Source: Sinohyriopsis cumingii (taxonomy: Eukaryota > Mollusca > Bivalvia > Unionida > Unionidae). Taken from it: 64,000 nucleotides of DNA. How positions within the stretch are numbered: the stretch's first letter is position 1; every line of letters starts with the position of its first letter. The DNA is taken from NCBI GenBank assembly GCA_028554795.2, contig CM068828.1:19739936-19803935 (forward strand), given 5' to 3'. This document shows, piece by piece, positions 33,801 to 36,800 of the stretch. The notes beneath the pieces are model-generated. The model worked only from the letters and a program-made list of their open reading frames with translations, was not told the DNA's origin and ran no database searches. Both the position numbers and the translations under genes were made by a program.

Positions 33801-36800
33801 AACCTTGACTCTGTATGCCTCACAAGAGAAAAGACTGAGCACCTTTCACATACGATGTCTCTGACGCATTCTTGGGATCACCTGGAGTGATTGAGTAGCA
33901 AAGAATGAGATGCTTGAACGTGCCAAGATTCCCAGCATGGCCACACTCCTCCGCCAACATCGCATCAGATGGCTGGTCCATGTACGTCAGATGGGTGACG
34001 GATGGATCCCCAAAGACCTTTATTCGGAACTTGCCTCTGGCAAAAGGTCAATTGGATGACCACATCTCTGCTTCAAGGATGTCTGCAAGTGTGACATGAA
34101 AGCCCTCGACATCCATGTCAACACCTGGGAAGAGCTCGCTCTAGACAGGCCCAGCTGGCAACACACTCTGATCAATGGTTTGAAAGCTGGCGAGGACAAG
34201 CTATGCTTGCTAGCTGATGAAAAGCGATCTCAGAAGAAGAAGAAGCAGCTACAATACACATCAGACCCAACCTTCAAGTGCAGCAAGGACTGCCACTCCC
34301 ATGTTGGGCTCCATAGCCACAGCAGACCACCAACTGGGACATCTCTCATGGGCGCACTTCCATCATCTCTCAAGAGTAATGAATGCCAACAACAATACTG
34401 CAATTATATTAGTGACCAACAATTCAATGTCTTGGGGCAGGGGCCTACCTTTTTTGTTTATTTCCATCTGTCAATAACTGGGGGAAAATACCTTGGTCTG
34501 ATTTGTAATAAAAAAAACCACCATATTATATCCATGACATTAATAGGAAAAAAATAACACCATACTATATCCATGATATTAATAGGAAAAAAATAACATC
34601 ATACTATATCCATGATATTAATAGGAAAAAAATAACACCATATTATATCCATGATATTAATAGGAACAAAATAACACCATATTATATCCATGATATTAAT
34701 AGGAACAAAAATATTAATTATCTTGAGATAAAAAAAAGAAAATACTTCAGCTCAAAAGAAAATATCAGCCCTCCCCCAATAATTCAATAGCAAGTACCTC
34801 ACTGTAGATATATTTGCAGTGTGTATAGTAATTGTTGTATAAGTTGCAATCTAACAACTGTAACTAAAGTGGGATGAATAGGCTTACACTGTAGCTGATA
34901 CTATGAAAGACATACAGCTGACAATAGAGATAATATTGATAAAAATATCAAGTGTTGATACCAAAGCCTTCAATTTTCAGGCTACACTATTGATATGATA
35001 GGCAGGTTAACTTTGAGTGGGATGCCAACACATCGGAAAGATATTTATCAGAGAGGGCCAGTAATTAAACACACTTACTCAACAAACAAGAAAATATTTA
35101 GTCAACTTGAGAAATTATGTATAGATAGACAGAAAACAAGTGCACCCCAGAAAATCATAGGGTGATTCACAGCCTAACAAAGTAGTACATATACTTAATA
35201 CATTCAAATACACTAGTTAAGACATGTGTGTTGCTGGGAGAGGGTGGGGTTTTAATCTGACATTATTGTGAAAGTTGGATTTTGGCCCAGACTGTTTCAC
35301 AATTCATTTGGTCACTGCATACATGACAGGAATCAAAGATGTAATTAAAGGATCATAAATAGAATTATATTTGTAACCATTAATTTATGACAATACATCT
35401 GTTTTGTAAACAAAAAAAGGTAAAAAAATGTACACTATTGTTCCATAAATAATGAAAATATCATTAAAGTGGTAACAAGATTCCTTGAGAATAACCTTAT
35501 GTTTCTTACTGACGGAAGCTACCAACATAACAGTGCAGTGAAAAGGAGCATGGTACCATAGAAAAAAAGATATACCAGTAAACATGTCAATGATACTTAC
35601 ATAAATCTGACCTTGCAAAGTATGCTGACCTTGCTAAGTATGTTGAACTTGCTAACCTTAAGTATGTTGACCTTGCAAAGTATGTTGACCTTGTTAAGTA
35701 TGTTGACCTTGCCAATCTCATTAATGATACTTACATAAATCTGACCTTGCAAAGTATGTTGACCTTGCTAAGTATGTTGACCTTGCTAACCTTAAGTATG
35801 TTGACCTTGCTAAGCATGTTGAACTTTGTTCAGTATGTTGACCTTTCTAAGCATGTGCAAGATACTTACATAAATCTGACTTTTTGAATATCTCTTCTGA
35901 ATCTCAGTCAGAATGGTCTCTTCTTTTATGTCTCCAACATTTGCCAGATTGTCATTTTCCATACAAAAGGGGAGATCACCCTAAAGGAAAAATACAAGGT
36001 ATCAAAACATTTTCCAAAATCATATTCTATTAGATTTGACAACAACATACAATGAAACCTCTCAAGACCACAACTGCAGTAAACCAAAATCTTTTTAAAA
36101 ACAAATATTTATCTGATCCATATTTTTCCTTCTTTAATTCAAATAAAACTAACTCAGAAACCAAAATGTCTCTCACTTAAATCAATTCAAATTTTCTGTT
36201 AAAAGTATCATCTTGACCTAAAATAAGCACAGTAGAGATGAAAACTTTTTAAAGCATGTTGCCAACTAATGGTCCTGAATCAATCCAAAAATATAAAATA
36301 CATAATACTTGATATATAAAAGTACATAATACATGTATTAAATTCACATTCAAACATGTTCATAGTATAAATTACAGCAGAAGAATATGTTTCATATGGT
36401 GTGAAATTAAAATAGGTATTAATAGAATATGAAAGAACAAATGGACAAAACTGATCACATCCTAAATTTAATAAGAAAATAATTATGCTGTTAAAATGAA
36501 AACACCATAAAAAATATAAATTTTGACCTATGATTTATGCCTTTGGTCTTGAGAGACAACATGACAGAGCTCTCACATTCTTCATTTTAGAAAACAAGGA
36601 AGTTAGATGCATGCAAAATTAATTCAGTATGTATTTCAACCCAAATATTTTACAGGCATCATATGACTACTGAAATATGAATAAACGATTCAAATAGTAG
36701 ACATAAAACGTAAACAGGCATTCTTTAATACATCACAAATTTTAATGACAGTCAAATCCATGAGAGGTCCATTAACTTTCTTCCATCTTTTTCATTTAAA

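Follow-up and report, generated by a model that had tools for sequence, protein, structure and literature searches.

The DNA analysed here (the window) is a 64,000-nucleotide stretch of contig CM068828.1 of the bivalve Sinohyriopsis cumingii, the minus strand of which carries four exons, A to D, of a myosin gene (Table 1). Exons A, B, C, and D belong to one myosin motor, and exon A is a real exon of it: a query made of exon A, most of exon B, and part of exon C matches solved myosins (best E 5.6e-17). Exon A on its own gives no match to solved structures at E values up to 1. The tail of exon A encodes QIY, which aligns to the ..EIYT of the solved myosins. Another Myosin_head match lies on the same strand at C5:19641971, and the gene may therefore span more than 130 kb.

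Table 1. Features of the myosin locus, in window coordinates (a slash marks the splice junction).
Feature	Position	Strand	Pfam match
Exon A, myosin motor; 37 codons, 111 nt, phase 0, ends ...RYSKSQIY	35870..35980	-	
J1, true exon end and donor, GTCAGATTTAT/GTAAGTATC, start of the first junction unit	35861..35880	-	
J2, junction word copy 2, exact; decoy donor (exon +135 nt if used)	35726..35745	-	
J3, junction word copy 3, exact; decoy donor (exon +269 nt if used)	35592..35611	-	
Array 1, two full 134/135-bp units and the start of a third	35578..35882	-	
LINE-like element between arrays 1 and 2	30357..34396	+	RVT_1, 2.3e-11
Array 2, further down the host intron, satellite as in array 1; junction units K0-K6, all seven degraded	29500..30266	-	
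Host intron, 17,545 bp, phase 0	18325..35869	-	
Exon B, begins at 18324	18259..18324	-	
Exon C, carries the P-loop GESGSGKT	15776..16003	-	Myosin_head, 3.9e-16
Exon D, region after the P-loop exon	13485..13599	-	Myosin_head, 9.9e-15

The last bases of exon A together with the start of its intron make up a 20-mer (GATACTTACATAAATCTGAC on the plus strand) that is present in three exact copies, spaced 134 and 135 nt apart. The initial annotation had noted that this word recurs exactly at 35726 and 35592, giving three perfect donors about 134 bp apart, and the exact-match positions and measured spacings agree with it on both counts. The tandem unit spans the exon-intron boundary of the host gene, with GTCAGATTTAT/GTAAGTATC exact in all three copies, and the two additional copies sit in the adjoining intron, 135 and 269 nt downstream, with TAT/GTAAGT intact. 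Both decoy donors are identical to the true donor from -11 to +9 and differ from it at -12. In the 2,904,868,851-base assembly the exact 20-mer has at least three matches, all at this locus, and its reversed control has none (the genome pattern counts given throughout are lower bounds); the same 20-mer search found no second haplotype for array 1. The remaining seven junctions of exons A to D have no such copies nearby.

Array 1 is built of a 134/135-bp higher-order unit, which comprises one 38-nt junction unit and five monomers of 18, 19, or 24 nt. The monomers are of the type AACATACTTAGCAAGGTC (18 nt, minus strand), and their run is interrupted by the junction unit, itself made up of AGATTTATGTAAGTATC and an intron-start monomer. 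By monomer decomposition, the true junction is the first junction unit and stands in register with the array, and the trinucleotide GTC is common to the exon end and the monomers. Copies 1 and 2 of the 135-position unit are alike at 119 positions and differ at 16, and the segment that ends in junction word 2 (35723-35826) is 95% identical over 104 nt to the one that ends in word 3 (35589-35692).

A second array of the same satellite, at 29.5-30.27 kb, was absent from the initial annotation and was found by TRF and monomer decomposition. A junction-unit profile, itself built from the same ten sequences, recovers ten full copies across the window; array 1 accounts for three of them and array 2 for seven. 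Array 2 looks the older of the two. One T of ATTTAT has been lost in four of its seven junction units, a fifth is also one base short there, and GT is clearly kept in three of the seven (K0 is not alignable at that point). Translation of part of array 2 (approximately 29654-29947) gives a Pfam LED_rpt match that stays below the curated cut-off (E 2.4e-11) and illustrates that minisatellites may mimic protein repeats.

Between the two arrays lies a LINE-like element, which is 82-90% identical to 43 other matches listed and also has an Exo_endo_phos_2 match (1.6e-4) below the cut-off of that family. The 9-bp sequence ATACTGCAA stands at both of its ends, at 30351 and 34395, and is likely its target-site duplication; it occurs twice more in the window. 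Even with the element taken out, about 1.3 kb of unrelated sequence would part the arrays (91 and 1,182 bases on its two sides).

Tandem repeats with a period of at least 10 cover 34.1% of the window. A 60-bp array at 13614-14507 (14.9 copies, 97% matches) ends some 14 bp short of the exon D acceptor; it was considered as a junction array and rejected, as it abuts the pyrimidine tract and the acceptor lies outside it. Two other satellite families appear by eye twice each in the host intron (18598-20164 and 28121-28680; 20194-20599 and 27427-28072), as if locally born satellites spread inside one intron. In addition, matches to a Tc5/CENP-B-type transposase DNA-binding domain on the minus strand, at about 41878-42234, mark the remnant of a DNA transposon.

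Minisatellite-like tandem duplications of exon-intron boundaries, known as mirages, have been described from the Adh, globin, and TnC genes of amphioxus, with imperfect repeats also in PGBD5, in the available text of two reports (PMC3087553, PMC3902484); the original Adh paper (doi 10.1093/nar/gkf386) is known here through a reference list. We consider it highly probable that array 1 is a locally born minisatellite of the same kind, whose copied donors are passive. A segment running from the tail of exon A into the start of the intron would have been tandemly duplicated, probably by way of a microhomology step at the short direct repeat GTCA, of which one copy lies in the exon end (AAAGTCAGA) and another in the intron (AAGGTCAAC). 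This duplication would have created a junction unit consisting of exon tail, donor, and intron start, which may then have been carried along as the 18-bp intronic monomer, and later the 134/135-bp unit, expanded. The first donor probably stays in use owing to exon definition and its position, and splicing would then be normal. Because exon tail and donor recur unchanged in every copy, expansion or contraction between copies leaves an intact junction, which would explain why the array is tolerated beside an exon.

How often such arrays include a donor was estimated from 87 loci, made up of 50 of 71 Myosin_head, 20 of 130 Pkinase, and 17 of 19 ABC_tran matches, and none of 91 Ion_trans matches. 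Two of these loci (L057 and L067) belong to the window's own gene, and exon A lies outside the sample. By a simple scoring, donors were called in 69 loci and acceptors in 49; 18 of the 87 had no acceptable donor, and 66 are open in the frame of the match. Repetition within 500 bases was seen for two of the 69 donors (both from one event; 95% interval 0.35-10%, or 1/68 when counted as one) and for none of the 49 acceptors. Of 1,685 control points in the downstream flanks, 346 showed a local repeat of any kind, and 48 qualified as array edges with copies on the downstream side only. Of an equal number of upstream-flank points (n = 1,685), 218 had a repeat of some kind, among them 32 with copies on the downstream side only and 57 with copies on the upstream side only, the latter being the appropriate comparison for acceptors. 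In the window itself, 4.7% of 2,428 points are downstream-only edges. A special enrichment of arrays at donors is rejected by these figures (2/69 versus 48/1,685; Fisher p = 1.0), and arrays that include a donor are, as far as this small sample tells, about as frequent as array starts anywhere in introns. The copies of the junction thus look like by-products of rampant minisatellite birth.

The single event in the survey provides a second case. The myosin gene at L025 (C4:90634487) and its paralog at L028 (C4:90795590), both on the plus strand and counted as one event, carry a 56-bp minisatellite, the unit of which includes the final 18 nt of a myosin exon and its donor, in 10.0 and 4.0 copies, respectively, by TRF. 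The two exons (232 nt) have four base differences and encode an identical protein, whereas a 1,167-bp block upstream is 93.7% identical; both genes thus appear to be maintained despite the copied donors. Among the copies listed, and with the true junctions included, GT is retained in eight of nine at L025 and two of three at L028. A further candidate junction array, at L023, was rejected, its array beginning about 30 bp after the donor. Two side observations were made in the same assembly: Myosin_head matches are clustered at G000:C9 (72.5-72.6 and 104.1-104.6 Mb), perhaps an expanded cluster of divergent myosin genes, and dozens of near-identical copies of a protein kinase gene follow one another in tandem at intervals of about 7.7 kb (G000:C193, C603, and C2:2.64-2.79 Mb).

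The best-placed alternative, which we nevertheless regard as improbable, is that the decoys are functional and regulate the gene, either by competing for an exon extension with a premature stop (a 'poison' extension) or by holding U1 snRNP along the start of the 17.5-kb intron. Both decoys are indeed identical to the true donor over the 20 positions, and use of either would lengthen exon A by 135 or 269 nt and bring in a TAG in frame 57 nt into the extension, as such a role would have it. This same stop, shared by both extensions, tells against the earlier proposal that the decoys may extend the exon. When copies 1 and 2 are compared by part, none of the 20 core positions differs, as against nine of the next 21 and seven of the remaining 94; the identity of the core is borderline at the rate of the whole non-core (P = 0.05), and selection on the core, or its conversion, may have contributed, but at the rate of the last 94 positions identity is what recent duplication would be expected to leave (P = 0.21). 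A function is also disfavoured by the clear retention of GT in only three of the seven copies of array 2 and by an array rate at donors that does not exceed the intron background. In the near decoys GT is retained in two of two, and the copies are too few to say whether decoy GTs are purged.

The earlier suggestion of recursive-splicing signals fares no better. In a recursive splice site, an AG that follows a pyrimidine tract is joined directly to the GT of a strong donor. That motif is absent here: a CAG lies 6 nt 5' of GTAAGT, with its AG 6 nt upstream of the GT, and AAG/GTCAG, further upstream, is a poor donor without a pyrimidine tract. Published amphioxus mirages are, moreover, reported not to interfere with splicing, in the available portions of the sources (PMC3087553, PMC3902484). 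With donors not enriched for arrays and the known mirages reported to leave splicing undisturbed, the functional suggestions of the initial annotation as a whole are not supported. A splicing function of the decoys is possible but unsupported, and the copied donors are most likely passive by-products.

It is very unlikely that copying ran the other way, that is, that the word came from a dispersed or older satellite, a copy of which supplied the exon end and donor, although a degraded form of it is present in array 2, at a distance of 5.3 kb. When up to three mismatches are allowed, the 26-mer monomer pair matches the genome at least 18 times, always in array 1 or array 2, against one match for the reversed control. 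A dispersed satellite is thereby rejected: at least 18 of 18 monomer-pair matches are in the host intron, and there are no copies at unrelated loci among the matches listed. The array-2 variant, with at most one mismatch, has at least four matches, all in array 2; its reversed control also has four, and hence it is the location of the matches that counts, their number alone proving little. The question of whether the 20-mer is a common satellite, put forward in the initial annotation, was likewise looked at genome-wide, and the matches are confined to this locus, the counts being lower bounds. The losses from ATTTAT in array 2 also give its copies a derived look.

The intron position itself points the same way. 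Five paralogous myosin exons were compared for the phase-0 position IY/T. Three of them (L022, L027, and L029) share it, beginning CAG/AC at T Y (S or T) G, where exon A has its phase-0 boundary. The remaining two (L009 and L017) read through IY/TY with no intron, and this was counted against our preferred explanation. As the position is common to three of the five, the boundary is taken to be older than the satellite and the exon end to have been copied into the intron. By sequence comparison, then, it is most likely that the boundary predates the satellite and that copying ran from exon to array, a direction read from the location of the satellite and from the three paralogs. An origin in an older satellite is largely refuted by the host-intron-only matches, the common intron position, and the alignment of QIY to solved myosins, and the earlier proposal that the array was seeded by duplication of the junction is well supported by the first two of these.

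Tandem arrays are prone to misassembly, and repeated junctions could, in principle, have arisen from a shorter array that was wrongly assembled; this is scarcely probable, however, given the 16 differences between copies 1 and 2 over 135 positions and the diverged copies of array 2, which has a pattern of its own. Chance, or convergence on the donor consensus, is refuted: a 12-mer also quoted in the initial annotation is, with one mismatch allowed, little above expectation (four in the window versus 1.42; eight of 100 shuffles reach four) and uninformative alone, but the exact 20-mer is expected about 0.024 times genome-wide from base composition and is found three times within 290 bp, and the flanking units align over 135 positions.

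We therefore return to the reading of array 1 as a mirage. As in the amphioxus mirages, its tandem unit extends across an exon-intron boundary and brings further copies of the splice signals into the intron. Its units are alike at 119 of 135 positions (copies 1 and 2), as compared with 81-100% for the globin mirage BflGb6 in the available text (PMC3087553). Unlike the amphioxus examples, array 1 has its junction unit and 18-bp intronic monomers nested together in a 134/135-bp unit, and the host intron holds another array of this satellite further downstream. Human genes in segmental duplications also have internal tandem repeats at exon-intron boundaries, and in both settings minisatellites lie across such boundaries in duplicated genes, as far as the accessible part of that report goes (PMC2812944). 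Those human repeats are reported to create alternative introns and the amphioxus mirages are reported to splice normally, again in the text available; normal splicing is the outcome predicted for the array described here. A further parallel is intron gain by tandem genomic duplication (PMC4974935, from its available portion), in which tandem duplication within a gene is likewise tied to intron evolution; in contrast to that process, there is no new intron here, and the intron that holds the copies occupies a position found in paralogs too. A limited literature search found no mirage outside lancelets, and we claim no wider absence.

The kind of repeat found at this locus has already been described but is little known, and the locus is a clear example of it. 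For the biology of the host gene itself the array is probably ordinary; such repeats abound in this genome, and the array has probably arisen from that abundance as a neutral by-product. The amphioxus genome measures about 0.5 Gb. What is added is a well-resolved mirage, together with a second one, in a far larger genome (2.9 Gb), and a first rough base rate. In addition, donors that are identical from -11 to +9 and set 135 and 269 nt along one intron offer a clean way to test whether the choice of donor is settled by position and exon definition alone.

It is tempting to speculate, tentatively and with the chances a little short of even, that this large genome harbours mirage minisatellites as a standing class, affecting a few per cent of donors at most. 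If so, possibly thousands of exons would be trailed by near-identical copies of their own donor, and because each copy regenerates an intact junction, such a boundary would be freely exchangeable by expansion, contraction, or conversion. Genes of this type would then be natural experiments on how a true donor is chosen among identical competitors.
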